From Polynucleobacter sp. AM-26B4 (GTDB taxonomy: Bacteria > Pseudomonadota > Gammaproteobacteria > Burkholderiales > Burkholderiaceae): a stretch of DNA of 64,000 nucleotides. Position numbers and translations under genes: made by a program. Location of the stretch: NCBI RefSeq assembly GCF_018882285.1, contig NZ_JACVOT010000001.1, positions 434,001-498,000 on the forward strand, read 5' to 3'. Below, in pieces: positions 20,212 through 28,750 of the stretch; the stretch's first letter is position 1, and each line of letters starts with the position of its first letter. The notes beneath the pieces are model-generated. The model was not told the origin of the DNA, did not search any database, and saw nothing but the letters and a program-made list of their open reading frames with translations.

Positions 20212-20253
20212 TTAAAAGAAAAAATCAGTAACTAAGATACCTTAGTTACTGAT
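20212..20253 (-). terminator. Strong intrinsic terminator between FDH structural genes and fdhD
   Basis: ATCAGTAACTAAG and CTTAGTTACTGAT form a perfect 13-bp stem with a four-base loop. TTTTTTCTTTT follows on the minus strand. It lies 17 bases after the stop of the small secreted protein and before fdhD. Confidence 0.92.
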
Positions 20254-20270
20254 TAGGATTTTAAAGCTGA

Positions 20271-20564
20271 TTACTTTTTAGCTGCTGGTGCAGCCGCTGG
20301 CGCTGGAGCCGGTGCAGCAGTAGGAGCAACAAATGGACCAGGATTTGTACAAGCTGCTGGCGCAGGAGCACCAGCCTTTTTGTACTTGTTAGCAACTTCG
20401 TTTTGTGACAAGCATAGTTTGTAAGCACCAACTTTATCACCGTGCGCTGTTCTGGCTTTAGCCAATTCAGCAGCAGCAGCTGCTTCAGGACTTGGAGCTG
20501 GCAACTTAGCAAACACGAAACCTGAGCTTAACAATGTGACCAATAGTAATGATAGTTTTTTCAT
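20271..20564 (-). CDS. Small exported Ala/Pro-rich protein of the FDH operon
   Basis: 97 residues. A Sec signal peptide is clear (MKKLSLLLVTLLSSGFVFA, cleavage before KLPAP). The mature part has a charged core with two cysteines (YKLCLSQN and PAACTNPG) and a low-complexity Ala/Pro tail ending in AAKK. It lies 18 bases after the cytochrome b subunit and just before a terminator, so it is the last gene of the structural operon. I do not know its function. The two cysteines may form a disulfide in the periplasm. Confidence 0.75.
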   Translation of the reverse strand: MKKLSLLLVTLLSSGFVFAKLPAPSPEAAAAAELAKARTAHGDKVGAYKLCLSQNEVANKYKKAGAPAPAACTNPGPFVAPTAAPAPAPAAAPAAKK

Positions 20565-20582
20565 GATTGTTCTTTCTTGGAT

Positions 20583-21626
20583 CTATGATTTTATTTTTCC
20601 AGATTTGATATCGTCGTACCAAAGTTCATGGTGCTCTTTACCCCAAGCTTCGTCAACGTAACCAGTCTTCATGCCTTGCAATGCGCCTTCCATGCCGATT
20701 GAACCAACATAGATATGACCCATGGCCATAACTGTCATCACAATTGCCGCAATACTGTGAATGATGTTAGCTAACTGCATTGTGCCGCGCCAGTATTCGA
20801 TACCCGGAATTGGAACAATCATATCCAAAACCCAACCAGATGCAGACACAACCAAACCAAGAACTGTTACACCACCCCAGAACCAAATCTTCTCACCAGC
20901 ATTGAAGCGGTGAGATGGGATGTGCTTACCTGACAATAAACCGCCAAATGAAGCTATCCAAGTTAAATCACCTTTATTCGGAATGTTGTCTTTAACGTAC
21001 AAGACGAAGAATAAAAGGATGCTAACTGTGAACAAAGGACCTGTGAAGTTGTGGATGTTCTTCATCACCAACAAGAATGTGCCGTACGCAGCGCCACCCA
21101 TGATAGGCAACAAGAAGAACTTGCCCCAAAGAATAAAGATGCCAGTGAATGCAAGCGCCAAGAAGCTGAACGCCATTAACCAATGTGAGAATCTTTCTAA
21201 ACCACTGAAACGCTTGATTAAGCGACCAGTCTTAGGTTCATGCAACTTGATTTGACCTTTGATCACAAACACAGTGGCGATCAAACCAGCCATGATCACC
21301 AACAACCAACCACCCCAAACAGTGATCACACCGTTACGGATAAGGCGCCATTGCTGACCAGACTTCTGAATCAACACACCCATTTCCTTGTTCGGGAAAT
21401 TAACTGAGTGAGCTACATCAGAATTAACATTTTTCCAAATTGGTTGGTTGCTACCAGGTTTGTTTTCACCGGCCTCACGCTGAGCCTGAACATCCTTACT
21501 TACTTCCAAGATGTTCACAGATTCAACTTGTGGCTTTGCGGCAGGAGCTGCCCCCTGCGCAAATGCCACTGAAGCTGTTACAGAAAGTACAACGCTGGCG
21601 AGTAAGTTTCTTATTGTAATTCTCAT
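20583..21626 (-). CDS. Formate dehydrogenase gamma subunit (cytochrome b)
   Basis: 347 residues of the FdnI/FdoI-type membrane cytochrome b, which takes electrons from the beta subunit to quinone. It has an N-terminal signal-like segment (ending AFAQG), a periplasmic stretch of about 75 residues, and four to five membrane helices. Candidate haem ligands are His in GLERFSHWLMAFSF, MKNIHNFTGP, NIIHSIAA and AMGHIYVGS. AGGAGACGGT precedes the ATG, a strong ribosome-binding site. The extended N-terminus is usual for FDH gamma subunits in this group. Confidence 0.92.
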   Translation of the reverse strand: MRITIRNLLASVVLSVTASVAFAQGAAPAAKPQVESVNILEVSKDVQAQREAGENKPGSNQPIWKNVNSDVAHSVNFPNKEMGVLIQKSGQQWRLIRNGVITVWGGWLLVIMAGLIATVFVIKGQIKLHEPKTGRLIKRFSGLERFSHWLMAFSFLALAFTGIFILWGKFFLLPIMGGAAYGTFLLVMKNIHNFTGPLFTVSILLFFVLYVKDNIPNKGDLTWIASFGGLLSGKHIPSHRFNAGEKIWFWGGVTVLGLVVSASGWVLDMIVPIPGIEYWRGTMQLANIIHSIAAIVMTVMAMGHIYVGSIGMEGALQGMKTGYVDEAWGKEHHELWYDDIKSGKIKS

Positions 21627-21652
21627 ACCGTCTCCTAAATTACTCGAGTAAC

Positions 21653-21886
21653 TTACTTAGCTTTAACGTAATCGTCTTGACCTAGGCTACGAGTTTTTAG
21701 CTGTTTTTCCCAGCTAACTTGATCACCCGAAGTCCAACCCTTTTCAACATATTTGTTGTCAGCAGCAACATAAGCTTTTTCATCGCCTTTTTTTGCTGCA
21801 ACCACAGTTTGAGGCACTTCAGAACATGCCCCAAGTGTGAATGTTGTTGCGATTAAAGCTGCAGTTAAAGAAATTCTTTTAATCAT
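21653..21886 (-). CDS. Small lipoprotein inside the FDH operon
   Basis: 77 residues with a lipoprotein signal peptide: MIKRISL, a hydrophobic run and the lipobox LGAC with the lipidated Cys at residue 21. The mature part is about 57 residues, charged, with no known domain. Its ATG overlaps the beta-subunit stop by four bases (ATGA), so translation is coupled to that of the beta subunit. It probably sits in the periplasm close to the FDH complex. Function unknown. Confidence 0.8.
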   Translation of the reverse strand: MIKRISLTAALIATTFTLGACSEVPQTVVAAKKGDEKAYVAADNKYVEKGWTSGDQVSWEKQLKTRSLGQDDYVKAK

Positions 21887-22512
21887 GATTTTTTTCCTGG
21901 AGCTTGTTGTGGTTTACCGTAAGCAGTGCCCCAACCGAATACGTTGGCACCAGCTGCTTTACCATTTGATTGACGCTTAACAACACGATTGCGGAAAATA
22001 TCTGCAACCACATCGCCATCACCACCAATCAATGCTTTGGTAGAACACATTTCAGCACAGGCTGGTAACTTGCCTTCTGATAAACGGTTACGTCCATACT
22101 TCTCAAACTCTGCTTGAGTACCGTTCTTCTCTGGACCACCAGCACAGAATGTGCACTTGTCCATCTTGCCACGAAGGCCGAATGTACCAGCGCTTGGGAA
22201 CTGTGGCGCGCCGAATGGGCATGCATATGAACAGTAGCCACAACCGATACAGATATCTTTATCGTGAAGCACTACACCTTCATCAGTTCTATAGAAGCAA
22301 TCTACTGGACATACAGCCATACATGGTGCATCTGAACAATGCATACATGCTACTGAGATTGATTTTTCAGCGCCAATTTGACCGTCATTAATTGTTACAA
22401 CACGACGGCGATTAACGCCCCAAGGTACCTCATGCTCATTCTTACACGCTGTCACACAACCATTACACTCAATGCAGCGCTCTGAATCGCAGATAAATTT
22501 CATTCTTGCCAT
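21883..22512 (-). CDS. Formate dehydrogenase beta subunit (4Fe-4S)
   Basis: 209 residues with four groups of cysteines for four [4Fe-4S] clusters: CIECNGCVTACKNE near the N-terminus, CMHCSDAPCMAVCPV, CIGCGYCSYACPF and a CTFC...CAEMC set. It wires the molybdenum site to the cytochrome b subunit. It lacks the C-terminal membrane anchor of E. coli FdnH (294 residues), so it is the short FDH3-type beta subunit. AGGAGACGAT precedes the ATG. Confidence 0.94.
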   Translation of the reverse strand: MARMKFICDSERCIECNGCVTACKNEHEVPWGVNRRRVVTINDGQIGAEKSISVACMHCSDAPCMAVCPVDCFYRTDEGVVLHDKDICIGCGYCSYACPFGAPQFPSAGTFGLRGKMDKCTFCAGGPEKNGTQAEFEKYGRNRLSEGKLPACAEMCSTKALIGGDGDVVADIFRNRVVKRQSNGKAAGANVFGWGTAYGKPQQAPGKKS

Positions 22513-22537: not shown

Positions 22538-25519
22538 TTAAGCGAACTTCTCAATCTGACAAATTGTTGTCTTGGTTTCCTGCATCATGGTCACGCTGTC
22601 GTAACCATAAGTTGTTGCAGTGTTCACAGCTTCACCACGTACGATCGGTGCAGCACCTTTTGGATAAGCATCCAACATATCTTTACCTTGCCACCATCCA
22701 GAGAAGTGGAACGGTATGAATGCTGTATCTGCAGCAACACGCTCAGTCACCAAAGCTTTCACCTTGATCTTTGCGCCTGTAGGAGATTTAACCCATACAT
22801 ATTCACCATTGCGAATGCCACGCTTGTTAGCAGCCGCTGGGTTGATTTCAACAAAGTTATCTTGTTGCAACTCAGCCAACCATGGGTTTGAACGAGTCTC
22901 TTCACCACCACCCTCGTACTCCACCAAACGACCTGAAGTAAGGATGATTGGGAACTTCTCATACAACTTGTCTTCAACGTTCTTCTGTTGAATTGACTTG
23001 TAAAGCGTTGGCATACGCCAGAAAGCTTTCTTGTCATCATGAGTTGGGTACTTAGCAACCAAGTCAGGACGTGTGCCATACAAAGGCTCACGGTGCTGTG
23101 GAATTGGATCAGGGAAGTTCCAAACTACTGCACGTGCCTTAGCGTTACCGAACGGATGACAACCGTGGTTCTTCATGATCACACGGATCAAACCACCAGA
23201 AACGTCCGTCTTCCAGTTTTTACCTTCAGCAGCTTTTTTCTCTGCATCAGTCAACTCATCCCACCAGCCAAGTTTCTTAACTAGAGCATGGTCAAACTCT
23301 GGGTAACCAGTCTTGATGTCAGCGCCCTTAGAGTAAGAACCGTTTTCAGCCAATAGTGTTTTGCCATCTCTTTCCACACCAAAGTTAGCGCGGAAGTTAC
23401 CACCACCATCCATCACGTGCTTGCTGGTGTCATAAAGATTTGGGCTACCTGGGTGTTTCATTTCAGGTGAACCGTAGCAAGGCCATGGCAAACCGAAATA
23501 ATCACCAGTTGTATCGTAACCAGTCACTGGGTCTTTACCACCCTTAGACTTCAACGTCTTCACATCAAACACGTGCATCATGCGCATGTGAGCTTTTAGA
23601 CGCTCTGGTGAGTGACCTGAGTAACCAATTGTCCATACTGACTTGTTGATTTCACGCAAGATGGATTCAACTTCTGGTTCTTTCCATTCTTTACCAGCAA
23701 ACTTGCTCTTCAACATCTTGTAGTTCTTTGACAACTCATTGCCAAAGCCAAGCTTGTCAGCCATTGCTTGCATGATCACGTGGTCAGGTACTGACTCGAA
23801 CAACGGATCAATAACTTTTTCACGCCACTGAATTGAACGGTTAGAAGCTGTGGCAGAACCACTTGTTTCAAACTGTGTTGCAGCAGGCAATAAGTAAACT
23901 GCACGATCCTTATTAACCTGAGCGCCTTCAACTTGCATAGCAGCCATCGCAGCAGTCGCACTTGGGTATGGATCAACCACAACCAATAGCTCTAACTTGT
24001 CCATGGCTTTCTTCATGTCAAGACCGCGAGTCTGTGAGTTTGGAGCATGACCCCAGAAGAACACACCCTTCACGTTATTGTCTTGATCAACAAGATCATT
24101 TTTCTCAAGCACAGCATCCACCCAACGTGAAACTGTTGTACCTGATTTCTCCATCATGTTTGGCGCGTATTGAGCTTTGATCCACTCGTAGTCAACACCC
24201 CATACTCCAGCGAAGTGTTTCCATGAACCAGCTGCTAGGCCATAGTAACCTGGCAATGAGTCTGGGTTAGGACCTACGTCAGTAGCACCTTGAACGTTGT
24301 CGTGACCGCGGAAAATGTTTGTACCGCCACCAGTCTTACCAACGTTACCTAATGCCAACTGCAAGATACATGAGGCACGAACCATCGCGTTACCAATCGT
24401 GTGTTGAGTCTGACCCATACACCAAACGATTGTTCCTGGACGGTTCTCATGAAGAGTCTTAGCAACTTGGAATACTTCTGCTTCAGTTGCACCGCAAGCT
24501 TCTTCAACTTTTGCAGGTGTCCACTTTTCAAGCACATCCTTCTTAACATCTTCCATACCGTAAACACGGTCATTAAGATATTTCTTATCTTCCCAACCAT
24601 TTTTGAAGATGTGATAAAGCACACCGAACAAGAATGGAATGTCTGAACCAGAACGAATACGCACATATTGATCAGCCTTAGCTGCTGTACGTGTGTAACG
24701 TGGATCAACCACAATCATTTTGCAACCGGCTTCTTTAGCGTGCAACATGTGCAACATTGAAACTGGGTGAGCTTCAGCAGCGTTTGAACCAATGTAGATA
24801 GCAGCTTTAGAGTTCTGCATATCGTTGTAGCTGTTGGTCATCGCGCCGTAACCCCAAGTATTCGCTACACCAGCCACTGTTGTTGAGTGACAGATACGCG
24901 CTTGGTGGTCAGTGTTGTTTGTACCGTAGAAAGAAACGAACTTACGTAGCAAGTAAGCTTGCTCGTTGTTGTACTTTGATGAACCGATGAAGAATACTGA
25001 ATCTGGGCCTGAAGTCTTCTTCAAGCTCTTCATTTTTGCAGTGATTTCGTCAAGTGCTTGATCCCAGCTGATTTTTTCGTACTTGCCATTCACAAGCTTC
25101 ATTGGGTACTTCAAGCGGAACTCACCGTGACCGTGTTCACGAATCGCCGCACCCTTGGCACAGTGTGCGCCCAAGTTGATTGGTGAATCAAACACTGGCT
25201 CTTGACGAGTCCAAACGCCGTTTTCAACTACTGCATCAATGGCGCAGCCAACTGAACAGTGTGTACAAACAGTACGTTTAACTTCAATTTTGCCCTTACC
25301 GTCAACCTTTGCTCCCGCAGAAGCTTTGGCTTTTTGTACCAAGGTTAGTTGAGATGCGGCTAAACCCACACCCACACCAACGCCTGAGCGCTTAAGGAAA
25401 GTACGACGATCCATCATTGGGATCGCGGATTGCAAACTGCGCGCTAAGCTGCCAACCATTTGGGCAGAGTGACGAGAAGCAGCAACTGCTTGTTGTGATG
25501 TTTTACGAATCAGACTCAT
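22538..25519 (-). CDS. Formate dehydrogenase alpha subunit (Mo-bisMGD, cysteine type)
   Basis: 993 residues of the DMSO reductase superfamily. The twin-arginine motif DRRTFLKRSG (R38-R39) marks export by the Tat system. A [4Fe-4S] cluster is bound by C85, C88, C92 and C120. The metal ligand is cysteine C210 in ARICHST, not selenocysteine, and the following His is conserved. The enzyme oxidises formate to CO2. GAGGG lies seven bases before the ATG. An intrinsic terminator stands between it and the TAT-target gene upstream. Confidence 0.95.
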   Translation of the reverse strand: MSLIRKTSQQAVAASRHSAQMVGSLARSLQSAIPMMDRRTFLKRSGVGVGVGLAASQLTLVQKAKASAGAKVDGKGKIEVKRTVCTHCSVGCAIDAVVENGVWTRQEPVFDSPINLGAHCAKGAAIREHGHGEFRLKYPMKLVNGKYEKISWDQALDEITAKMKSLKKTSGPDSVFFIGSSKYNNEQAYLLRKFVSFYGTNNTDHQARICHSTTVAGVANTWGYGAMTNSYNDMQNSKAAIYIGSNAAEAHPVSMLHMLHAKEAGCKMIVVDPRYTRTAAKADQYVRIRSGSDIPFLFGVLYHIFKNGWEDKKYLNDRVYGMEDVKKDVLEKWTPAKVEEACGATEAEVFQVAKTLHENRPGTIVWCMGQTQHTIGNAMVRASCILQLALGNVGKTGGGTNIFRGHDNVQGATDVGPNPDSLPGYYGLAAGSWKHFAGVWGVDYEWIKAQYAPNMMEKSGTTVSRWVDAVLEKNDLVDQDNNVKGVFFWGHAPNSQTRGLDMKKAMDKLELLVVVDPYPSATAAMAAMQVEGAQVNKDRAVYLLPAATQFETSGSATASNRSIQWREKVIDPLFESVPDHVIMQAMADKLGFGNELSKNYKMLKSKFAGKEWKEPEVESILREINKSVWTIGYSGHSPERLKAHMRMMHVFDVKTLKSKGGKDPVTGYDTTGDYFGLPWPCYGSPEMKHPGSPNLYDTSKHVMDGGGNFRANFGVERDGKTLLAENGSYSKGADIKTGYPEFDHALVKKLGWWDELTDAEKKAAEGKNWKTDVSGGLIRVIMKNHGCHPFGNAKARAVVWNFPDPIPQHREPLYGTRPDLVAKYPTHDDKKAFWRMPTLYKSIQQKNVEDKLYEKFPIILTSGRLVEYEGGGEETRSNPWLAELQQDNFVEINPAAANKRGIRNGEYVWVKSPTGAKIKVKALVTERVAADTAFIPFHFSGWWQGKDMLDAYPKGAAPIVRGEAVNTATTYGYDSVTMMQETKTTICQIEKFA

Positions 25520-25544
25520 GGATAAACCCTCAAAGATTCAAGAG

Positions 25545-25581
25545 AAATAAAAAAACACTCGTTTAAAAATTAAACGAGTGT
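25545..25581 (-). terminator. Intrinsic terminator overlapping the TAT-target stop codon
   Basis: On the minus strand ACACTCGTTTA-ATTTT-TAAACGAGTGT is followed by TTTTTTTATTT: a perfect 11-bp stem, five-base loop and T-run. The first arm encodes the last codons ACA CTC GTT and the TAA stop of the TAT-target gene. The FDH alpha gene begins about 35 bases further on, so this is an internal terminator of the FDH operon. Confidence 0.9.
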
Positions 25582-25767
25582 AGTTTTGTAATATTTACGG
25601 ACATGATCAGATAACTTGTAACCCTTGCTATCTTCCATCATGGTAGAGGCTTGCTCAGCAATCGCTGTTCCCAATGGGGTTTGAGACACAACAGCTACTG
25701 CACCTGCAGTAACACCTGCTGTAACAAAGAATTTTCTGCGCGAATCTTTGTGTTTGTTTTCACTCAT
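25570..25767 (-). CDS. Formate dehydrogenase region TAT-target small protein
   Basis: 65 residues. It has a twin-arginine motif (DSRRKFFVTAG), a hydrophobic stretch and a short mature part ending in SDHVRKYYKTTLV. It matches the small family known as formate dehydrogenase region TAT target. The role is unknown; it may help Tat export or assembly of the alpha subunit encoded next. AGGAGATAGTT precedes the ATG. Its last three sense codons and stop form one arm of a terminator. Confidence 0.88.
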   Translation of the reverse strand: MSENKHKDSRRKFFVTAGVTAGAVAVVSQTPLGTAIAEQASTMMEDSKGYKLSDHVRKYYKTTLV

Positions 25768-25883
25768 AACTATCTCCTATTAATTCTTAACAATCTGCCA
25801 CTAAATTACAAAAGTAACACTTGCATTTATGGTCTAACTATAAACCTTTATTATTTTTTTTGCACACGACAAATCAAATACTT

Positions 25884-25904
25884 GACTAGGGGTTTCCCTA
25901 AGTC
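25884..25904. promoter_or_regulatory. Operator-like imperfect palindrome upstream of the FDH structural operon
   Basis: GACTAGGG-GTTT-CCCTAAGTC is a near-perfect inverted repeat with one bulged base. It lies between the torD terminator and the TAT-target start, about 120 bases upstream of that gene. It could be a regulator site or part of the terminator flank. No matching known operator comes to mind. Confidence 0.35.
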
Positions 25905-25941
25905 AAAAAGGCTTGCTGAGTCTGAATCAACAAGCCTTTTT
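25905..25941 (-). terminator. Intrinsic terminator after torD
   Basis: AAAAAGGCTTG and CAAGCCTTTTT form a stem with a 15-base loop, followed by a T-run on the minus strand. It lies 41 bases after the torD stop, ending the maturation block and insulating the FDH structural promoter. It could also work on the plus strand. Confidence 0.85.
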
Positions 25942-25982
25942 CGATAACGCTTAAGTTAAAAATAGATTGAATTTTTATAACT

Positions 25983-26639
25983 TTATTCAACCATGTCCAT
26001 GGCATAAGCCTCTACCTCAAAAAAGGCTTTAGCGAGCATGGCAACTGACCTGTAATGATTGGCCAAAGGGTGTACATCTGTTGCATCGCACAATTCTTGT
26101 ACCCAAGAACGCAAATGCTCATCAAAAAACTTTTTTTGCTGTGTTAGATTGGCAATTGCCAAATCATCACCGGCGATCAAATAACGCATCACCTCACACA
26201 AGGAGGAAATGTGATCTTCACTCTCAGTGATGTTTTCAGCAGCTTCAAGGCCCAACTCTTGCAAAGAATCACGCAAGCGCACGAGTGGCTTTTCATTCAT
26301 GAAGCCTGACTGGTAATAAGACCCATACAAAAATACTTCTGGCTTACCAATGCCAATGAAAAGCTCCTGATACTCATCTGCCCACTCTTTGGCAGATGAA
26401 GATGAAGCAACGCGTACCAACTCATCCCAGGCTTGAGTCAAGGCTGCGTTATCAGGTGCTTCAGACCCTGTGCCATAAGCAGCAGAAGCTGCAATACGAT
26501 GTAATAAATCATCATCAGGCGCTTGGTAGAAGAGCGCTGCCAACAAACCATAAAGATCTGCGCGAGCTACGTCCTCTTCTAGTCCATCAGTACTTAAAGA
26601 AGTGACTTCTTCATCTAATTTTTTTTCCATATCACTCAT
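25983..26639 (-). CDS. TorD-family chaperone for the FDH alpha subunit
   Basis: 218 residues, all helical, with the TorD/DmsD family pattern: an N-terminal R-x-DLYGLLAALFYQAPDDDLL block, then YQELFIGIGKPEVFLYGSYY and a central H-x-SSLCEVMRYLI helix. Such chaperones bind the twin-arginine signal of molybdoenzymes until the cofactor is in. It overlaps the polyferredoxin stop by one base (TGATG), so expression is coupled. The FDH alpha subunit is its likely client. Confidence 0.88.
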   Translation of the reverse strand: MSDMEKKLDEEVTSLSTDGLEEDVARADLYGLLAALFYQAPDDDLLHRIAASAAYGTGSEAPDNAALTQAWDELVRVASSSSAKEWADEYQELFIGIGKPEVFLYGSYYQSGFMNEKPLVRLRDSLQELGLEAAENITESEDHISSLCEVMRYLIAGDDLAIANLTQQKKFFDEHLRSWVQELCDATDVHPLANHYRSVAMLAKAFFEVEAYAMDMVE

Positions 26640-28750
26640 CAGACCACATCGTTATCGTTAGGTTTATTCATCATGTCAATCACGCGACAGTCGCTGCACA
26701 TCTTGAGACGCTCAGTGGCCGCACCCGAGAACGCAGCGTGCAATGACAACTTGCCAACCATCAACTCAACCATTTTCAGCGTACCAAATGCTTTGCCACA
26801 ACTGATGCAGTGGAATGGCTTTGTTTCATTAAGAACAACAGTCTTTTTTCTGATCTCAGTGGTTTGCAAACGCGGCGCCAGAGTCAAAGCATTTTCAGGG
26901 CAGGTTTGAACACACAAACCACATTGCACGCAGTTGCGCTCAATCATTGATAGCTGTGGCGCATCTGGGTTATCGCGCAAAGCACTTTCAGGGCAGGCGC
27001 CCACACAAGACATACACAAAGTACAAGCATCTTGATTAACAAGCACACCACCAATGGGAGAGCCAGCCGCTAAAAGCAAAGGCTTCTCATTTGTGACCTT
27101 GATTGATCCATGCAACATCAAATGCTCTAAAGCAGCCTCTAATGTTTCACGCTTTTCATTAGCAAATGCAAAAGTTGCTGCTGGACATAACGCTGCTTTT
27201 GCAGGCAATGCAGCAGTTTGTTTTTCTAATGCTTGAGCACTATCAGCTTGCAACAAGACAATACTGTCTTTCGCGTAACCCAAACCTTCGAGCATGGATT
27301 GAGCAACAGTCACTTGAGTGCTCAAAGCTTGCTGGTATTCAGGAGCTTCCTCGCCACTCAACAAAATGGCCACTTGGCCAAAACCATGAGCCAAACTACC
27401 TAACCACAAGTCCATGCCGGTTGATGCACTGTGATGCAAACCAAATGGAATTAGATGAGCAGGCAAGCCTTTGAAATTAGTTTTGTTTGTTGCTGCAAGA
27501 CGACCCAAAGATTGAATCAACTCCTGACCCTTGCCATTGCTGTGCAATAACAAGCTAGGCGCAAGTTTTGCACCAGCAGCTTGATAAGCTTTGGCCATCA
27601 CTTTGATCTGCTGACCTTGGTAAGGAACACTTGGGTAGTTGTAACGCATCGCCCCCGATGGGCACACCGTCGCGCAAGCACCACAACCCATACAAAGATT
27701 TGGATTGACCTTGACCGTGCCTTTGCCATCTCTGAATTGAGATTCAATGGCCTTCGTTGAACAAACATCAACACAGGCAGAACAACCTACTTTGCCATTG
27801 CGTCCATGAGCACACACTTTTTCGTTATAGGCAAAAAACTTAGGCTTTTCGAATTCACCAACCATGCCCATCAACTCGGATGCTGCGATTGCTTGATCTA
27901 ATGGATCTGCCTTGGGAGCGTAATAACCTTGCGGTGGTTGGCTCATCTTCAAGATTGGATCTTTTGATAAATCAAAAATCAAATCCCATGATTCAGTTCG
28001 GCTTGTATCAACACGGTCAAAATTAATGGCGCCGATTGCAGAACAAGCTTTCACGCAAGAGCGATGGCTCTTACATTTATTCAAGTCAATTTGATAGCTG
28101 AGATCGATTGCATTCTCTGGGCAAGCATCCACACAAGCGCCACAGCGAGTACACAACTCAAGATCAATTGGATTCTCCTGAGCCCACTCAACAGAGAATG
28201 CGCCGAGATAACCTTTGAGGTTTTTGATCTTGCCGCTGTAAACAGGAAACTCGCGAAGCTGTGGCAAAGAACCCTTCTCAGTGCAAAGCACCCCAACGCT
28301 CATGTTTTTTGATAAGCGCTCAGCCCATTGAATAGCAACATCTCCTGGACCAACCACCAATACGCGACCACCACTTTGATAGCTGACTGTATTAACTGGC
28401 TCGGGCTCAGGCAATGAGGCCATGGCCAATAAAGCAGCAATCTTTGGCATCGCATTTTTTGCATCTGCCGACCATCCGCCAGTTTCTCGGATGTTCACAA
28501 ATTTAATTGGGGCAATCAGTGGCTTTTCTTGTTCGCTGGCAACTTCATCAAACAAACGTTTTTCTTGAGTACAAGCCAACACAATCTCATCCGAACCCTG
28601 AGAGGCCGCAATGAAAGTTCCCACCTCTTGGCGACACAAGGCATTATTGAGTGAGATATTTTTGCTGTCGACCCCCATACCCTTAGCTATCTGCACGATA
28701 TCTATGGGCATGGTTTGATTACAGCTACAAACGAGCGTCTTCTTTGTCAT
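26639..28750 (-). CDS. Large polyferredoxin of the FDH cluster
   Basis: 703 residues with at least six ferredoxin-type cysteine motifs: CTRCGACVDACP and CKSHRSCVKAC near residue 200-240, CSACVDVC and CMGCGACATVCP around 330-365, and CTLCMSCVGACP with CVQCGLCVQTCP around 575-625. The N-terminal part starts with an extra CSCNQ motif. A C-terminal zinc-ribbon-like pair (FHCISCGK and MCSDCR) follows. No signal peptide, so it is cytoplasmic. It is a standard companion of betaproteobacterial FDH clusters; its role in electron supply or cofactor assembly is unproven. Confidence 0.85.
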   Translation of the reverse strand: MTKKTLVCSCNQTMPIDIVQIAKGMGVDSKNISLNNALCRQEVGTFIAASQGSDEIVLACTQEKRLFDEVASEQEKPLIAPIKFVNIRETGGWSADAKNAMPKIAALLAMASLPEPEPVNTVSYQSGGRVLVVGPGDVAIQWAERLSKNMSVGVLCTEKGSLPQLREFPVYSGKIKNLKGYLGAFSVEWAQENPIDLELCTRCGACVDACPENAIDLSYQIDLNKCKSHRSCVKACSAIGAINFDRVDTSRTESWDLIFDLSKDPILKMSQPPQGYYAPKADPLDQAIAASELMGMVGEFEKPKFFAYNEKVCAHGRNGKVGCSACVDVCSTKAIESQFRDGKGTVKVNPNLCMGCGACATVCPSGAMRYNYPSVPYQGQQIKVMAKAYQAAGAKLAPSLLLHSNGKGQELIQSLGRLAATNKTNFKGLPAHLIPFGLHHSASTGMDLWLGSLAHGFGQVAILLSGEEAPEYQQALSTQVTVAQSMLEGLGYAKDSIVLLQADSAQALEKQTAALPAKAALCPAATFAFANEKRETLEAALEHLMLHGSIKVTNEKPLLLAAGSPIGGVLVNQDACTLCMSCVGACPESALRDNPDAPQLSMIERNCVQCGLCVQTCPENALTLAPRLQTTEIRKKTVVLNETKPFHCISCGKAFGTLKMVELMVGKLSLHAAFSGAATERLKMCSDCRVIDMMNKPNDNDVV

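Follow-up and report, generated by a model that had tools for sequence, protein, structure and literature searches.

The signal sensed by the pyrBI attenuator of Escherichia coli is UTP-dependent pausing of RNA polymerase. In this system a translated frame, PyrL, enters an intrinsic terminator that precedes the enzyme genes, and termination is prevented by a ribosome close behind the polymerase (PMC4824070 and PMC5021804). The ribosome is not always able to prevent termination, since the latter study reports that the pyrL hairpin still lowered expression of a translated reporter about 18-fold. A terminator 5 bp past a stop codon in E. coli fell in efficiency from ∼90% to <10% and regained it when translation was absent (PMC4824070). 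The usual distance from stop codon to terminator in E. coli is 25 to 75 nt according to a term-seq study (PMC12207403), and a review describes short spacing as a mark of species whose polymerase outruns their ribosomes (PMC7858274). Here we describe a terminator-type hairpin in a formate dehydrogenase (FDH) operon of Polynucleobacter sp. AM-26B4 that includes the stop codon of a small first gene, and we consider whether translation of that gene may control it.

The window analyzed is a 64,000-nt stretch of contig NZ_JACVOT010000001.1 (positions 434,001 to 498,000), and the features of the locus are collected in Table 1. A first-pass annotation made from the sequence had proposed that a stem of 11 bp with a seven-base T run lies between a small TAT-target gene and FDH alpha, and that one arm of it encodes the last three codons and the stop of the small gene. 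Both statements held. The minus strand from 25581 to 25555 reads ACACTCGTTTAA-TTT-TTAAACGAGTGT and continues as TTTTTTATTT, a U-rich tract right behind the stem; the stem comprises 12 bp around a 3-nt loop, or 11 bp when the innermost A-T pair is taken as unpaired. The C-terminal end of the small-gene ORF is Lys-Thr-Thr-Leu-Val-stop, and the frame thus runs into the terminator stem, the left arm of which begins 186 nt into the gene and sets the start of the hairpin at −12 relative to the stop codon. The folding energy of the hairpin is −13.2 kcal/mol, and the fold of the surrounding 121-nt region has a z score of −2.83. In the 1.67-Mb genome the hairpin pattern has a single occurrence and its reversed control has none, which rules out a dispersed repeat. 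A search of positions 24500 to 27000 against Rfam, at E values up to 1, returned no match to a known RNA family or riboswitch, and a search for viral relatives found none.

Table 1. Features of the FDH locus (positions within the 64,000-nt window)
Feature	Positions	Strand	Basis or remark
Possible operator upstream of the promoter, near-palindrome TTAGGGAAACCCCTA	25887..25902	minus	AGGGAAA invariant in 11/11
Terminator-like hairpin AAAAAGGCTTG...CAAGCCTTTTT, ending the unit of the upstream TorD-like gene	25905..25941	minus	Sequence reading
Proposed −10 element TATAGT ahead of the small gene	25837..25842	minus	Alignment of 11 clade-A upstream regions; promoter role putative
Small gene, 65 aa, Tat signal, TIGR02811-like; proposed "leader" of the gate	25570..25767	minus	ORF and family match
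Terminator-type hairpin	25555..25581	minus	Structure, covariation, presence in 22 genomes
Hairpin left arm	25581-25570	minus	ACA CTC GTT TAA = Thr63 Leu64 Val65 stop
Hairpin loop	25569-25567	minus	
Hairpin right arm	25566-25555	minus	
Seven-T run (U-tract) behind the stem	25549..25555	minus	Last stem base included; T-rich tail kept in relatives
Formate dehydrogenase alpha, 993 aa, first gene past the hairpin	22538..25519	minus	ORF and family match
Rest of structural operon	20271..22512	minus	ORFs and family matches
FDH3-type beta	22512-21883	minus	
Small protein, 77 aa	21886-21653	minus	Lipoprotein-like; overlaps end of beta gene by 4 nt
Gamma	21626-20583	minus	
ORF, 97 aa	20564-20271	minus	Ala/Pro-rich
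Predicted terminator past the last ORF of the operon	20223..20254	minus	Stem of 14 bp, starting 16 nt after the stop

The label "TAT target" needs a correction. Residues 1 to 63 of the 65 in the small protein align with TIGR02811 ("formate dehydrogenase region TAT target," formate_TAT), and the score of 45.2 bits falls just below the curated cutoff for membership (48.45). Its gene stands directly before alpha, as it does in relatives from other genera. The alpha ATG lies at 25519, 50 nt beyond the small-gene stop, and is preceded by a Shine-Dalgarno-like GAGGG at 25531-25527. The 77- and 97-aa small proteins encoded farther along the operon had no match in NCBIfam.

Eleven upstream regions from clade A, one of two groups of hairpin carriers described below, have diverged apart from the invariant AGGGAAA, a TATAGT-like −10 element, and a shared CATAAATG(C/T)AAGT block. 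The conserved segment that holds the putative −10 element, GTTTATAGTTA ... CATAAATGCAAGT, extends to about 25819 (25819-25847), and the element itself is TATAGT in 10 of the 11 sequences and TATAGT then C in L048. The near-palindrome and the TATAGT...CATAAATGCAAGT block likely serve the fdh structural operon as its operator and promoter, respectively. We also observed that a leader block, AATGCAAGTGT at 25819-25831, could pair with left-arm positions 25573-25581, in some relatives though not in others. The terminator-like hairpin on the TorD side recurs in the upstream regions of three relatives (G070, G150, and G184). A separate promoter directly before alpha, the case that the first-pass annotation had set against its own reading, was rejected as a candidate: promoter prediction on the minus strand found no promoter-like site between the start of the small gene and alpha (25767-25519), and loci of other genera keep alpha close behind the small gene. 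Given the conserved promoter-like block, the hairpin closing the TorD-like gene, and the lack of a predicted site before alpha, the small gene most likely heads the transcription unit, and transcription of all that lies past the hairpin would depend on read-through.

To place the hairpin among the other terminators of this genome, we scanned an 864-kb sample (40 stretches plus the window) with a strict threshold for a hairpin followed by a T run, using crude gene calls (the longest nonoverlapping ORFs of 90 aa or more). The scan predicted 64 terminators, which begin a median distance of 41.5 nt beyond the stop codon, and none of them starts between −20 and +4. A single control span of the 791 placed inside genes reached the same threshold, a set that leaves out the 65-aa gene itself because of the length limit on gene calls; a looser scan gave 115 matches, 30 of them in control spans and 6 starting before the end of the stop codon. 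One other strict signal begins before the end of a stop codon (at −22, in L171:15835-16600), and it has a broken T run and a same-strand gene 74 nt farther on. Taken with the published spacing rule, terminators that keep away from stop codons make this lineage look transcription-translation coupled, a view of Polynucleobacter drawn from terminator spacing alone, and at −12 the fdh hairpin would sit where a ribosome masks it.

The small gene is present in 167 of 186 genomes of the genus (an earlier profile search of 61 genomes had detected the family in 41), and a covariance search with strict filters placed the hairpin at the same position in 22 of the 186. With E values up to 0.01 the covariance model matched 40 of the 186 genomes; 22 of these matches were strong (E of 1.2e-6 or better) and at the locus, three more (1.6e-5 to 2.6e-4) represent this hairpin read on the opposite strand, and the remainder (at least 3e-4) lay elsewhere. 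Downstream regions were read directly for 132 of the 167 gene-holding genomes (131 tree rows plus G087, L084) and the rest were covered by the covariance search; the strict rule recovered the hairpin in 21 of the 132, the 22nd carrier being G107, whose T tail is shorter. A search of named genomes gave 11 loci, all with the hairpin, which overlap the 22 and are not additional genomes; Polynucleobacter cosmopolitanus MWH-MoIso2 is a carrier whose small protein is 98% identical.

The carriers comprise 13 clade-A and 9 clade-B genomes, and in all of them the left arm falls within the last codons of the small gene, while the length of the loop and the spacer farther downstream differ freely from one carrier to another. 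In clade B, 3 nt are missing from the right arm, which puts the stop codon in the loop and not in the stem. All 13 members of clade A have the hairpin. In clade B the strict rule finds it in 8 of 10 members, G107 brings the number to 9, and G106 is without it. In a tree of 131 rows built from the small protein and the N terminus of alpha, the two clades stand apart and the hairpin label needs four changes; a tree constrained to hold the 21 strict carriers together as a clade had a p-AU of 0.0497 from few columns, which neither firmly rejects nor supports a single origin. Among 31 loci from other genera none has the hairpin, and in every one the small gene ends 9 to 32 nt before alpha, indicating that the two genes are old neighbors and that the hairpin is newer, in some Polynucleobacter. 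Its absence from most of the genus and from all 31 of these loci also indicates that the hairpin is not needed for FDH. The gap between the two genes is mostly 40 to 74 nt within the genus; three members belonging to its most distant branch have 24 to 26 nt. Translational coupling of the small gene to alpha was probably loosened before the hairpin arose.

The stem shows covariation in spite of its coding constraint. Across 15 distinct sequences and nine pairs, all 114 of 114 cells are paired, with no broken pair; the covariation score (0.154, versus 0.082 when shuffled) was reached by none of 500 shuffles, and the paired-cell count likewise exceeded all 500. Because only two stem pairs vary, the number of variable pairs (2 versus 1.1 shuffled, 119/500) and of pair types (3 versus 3.1, 433/500) are both unexceptional. 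The changes in the coding arm are synonymous and at third bases (Thr ACA/ACG and Leu CTC/CTT), and the noncoding arm follows them, with ACA facing TGT, ACG facing CGT, CTC facing GAG, and CTT facing AAG; one G-U intermediate occurs, in G201. An apparent change of the stop to TGA in G153 (L042) was left out of this count since the inner pairs shift there. We count about three independent compensating events, a modest number with no exception among them. Covariation and conservation in 22 genomes uphold the earlier proposal of a terminator-type hairpin built into the end of the gene before FDH alpha; the feature is almost certainly a selected hairpin of this type, and it very probably terminates transcription.

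The explanation that we cautiously favor for the locus as a whole is an intrinsic terminator placed under the control of the ribosome that finishes the small first gene. Transcription would start at the putative promoter that closely precedes the small gene, with a predicted start near 25830, and a ribosome close behind the polymerase would, on reaching the UAA, cover the hairpin from its left arm through the loop into part of the right arm. The masked hairpin would then be unable to fold while the polymerase crosses the T run, and FDH alpha, beta, and gamma would be transcribed. Were translation of the small gene weak or lagging, the hairpin would fold and transcription would end after about 280 nt, leaving the small-gene message alone. 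Judging from the position of the hairpin and the published E. coli work (PMC4824070), gating by the ribosome seems reasonably probable, and an effect on FDH output would presumably follow; the ribosome-dependent read-through raised in the first-pass annotation thus has indirect support, to which the distance of the other terminators from stop codons adds. The signal sensed could simply be inefficient initiation at the small gene or slowed translation during starvation. More tentatively, the accessory gene may also serve as sensor for a translation checkpoint, with its final codons forming a terminator arm so that metalloenzyme genes are transcribed only when translation keeps in step; two Polynucleobacter lineages would then have gained or kept the gate, each with its own slight variant of the hairpin, and the remainder of the genus would lack it.

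Other explanations of the hairpin are open to the same evidence. The standard form of the hairpin and T run and the apparent promoter-proximal position of the small gene would suit a fixed partial terminator, the other option named in the first-pass annotation, at which a constant share of polymerases stops and more small protein than enzyme is made with no special part for the ribosome. Such a terminator could, however, occupy any position from the end of the small gene to alpha, its placement over the stop codon is one that the other sampled terminators of the genome avoid, and PMC4824070 reports that translation represses a terminator so placed. We consider a fixed terminator unlikely on these grounds. 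Hairpins internal to operons that serve mRNA processing or stability are known, and this one lies between two genes of one operon, where it could guard the 3′ end of a cleaved small-gene message or space the two genes for translation; such a role seems improbable, as a stability hairpin does not need the T-rich tail that is kept here along with the stem.

A classical attenuator, in which the left arm pairs with the 5′ leader AATGCAAGTGT to form a regulated antiterminator, gains some support from folds of the left arm alone, which pairs upstream with a probability of 0.87 to 0.96 in L037, L039-L041, L045, and L046 (0 to 2 of 30 shuffles). This strong pairing is limited to 6 of 12 sequences, however, and is absent or weak in the other 6; L042, L043, L047, L048, and L066 are unexceptional (7 to 28 of 30 shuffles reach their values) and L044 is weak (3/30). 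With the right arm present the terminator dominates in 11 clade-A sequences (0.91 to 0.99), and conservation of the leader block may reflect promoter DNA. With upstream pairing divided evenly among the sequences, we consider regulated antitermination very unlikely. The restriction of the hairpin to two groups of one genus and its absence from G106 within clade B might be expected of a chance or decaying palindrome without function, but the 15 distinct sequences show compensating changes and not one broken pair, and a single gene-internal control span in 791 passes the same threshold, which leaves that idea scarcely credible.

Among the papers searched, a search by wording found none that couples a terminator hairpin or intrinsic terminator with stop-codon overlap under those phrasings, and nothing on regulation of this FDH operon came up among the entries listed. 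As proposed, the system is translation-gated termination with a protein-gene leader and not a new class. Like the stop-proximal terminators of Bacillus subtilis (Johnson et al. 2020, as described in PMC7858274), the fdh hairpin lies within a few nucleotides of a stop codon; in that species, where transcription runs away from translation, such spacing is frequent and does not impair termination, as polymerase outruns the ribosomes, whereas the other terminators sampled here keep their distance from the stop and the fdh site lies inside an operon. Ribosome masking would be expected as for the tR2 terminator set beside a stop codon (E. coli; Li et al. 2015, PMC4824070), although that case is synthetic, with the terminator 5 bp downstream of the stop, and the fdh hairpin is natural and carries the stop codon in its stem. 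Masking of a stop-adjacent terminator by the ribosome has so far been shown in engineered E. coli plasmids, and if our reading is correct, a natural, conserved operon with a protein-coding leader would make such masking into regulation. The closest likeness is to pyrBI, with a translated frame entering an intrinsic terminator ahead of enzyme genes and a close ribosome proposed to prevent termination, but the pyrBI leader is a short dedicated peptide, whereas the fdh frame is the gene of a conserved 65-aa Tat-signal protein and ends inside the left arm.
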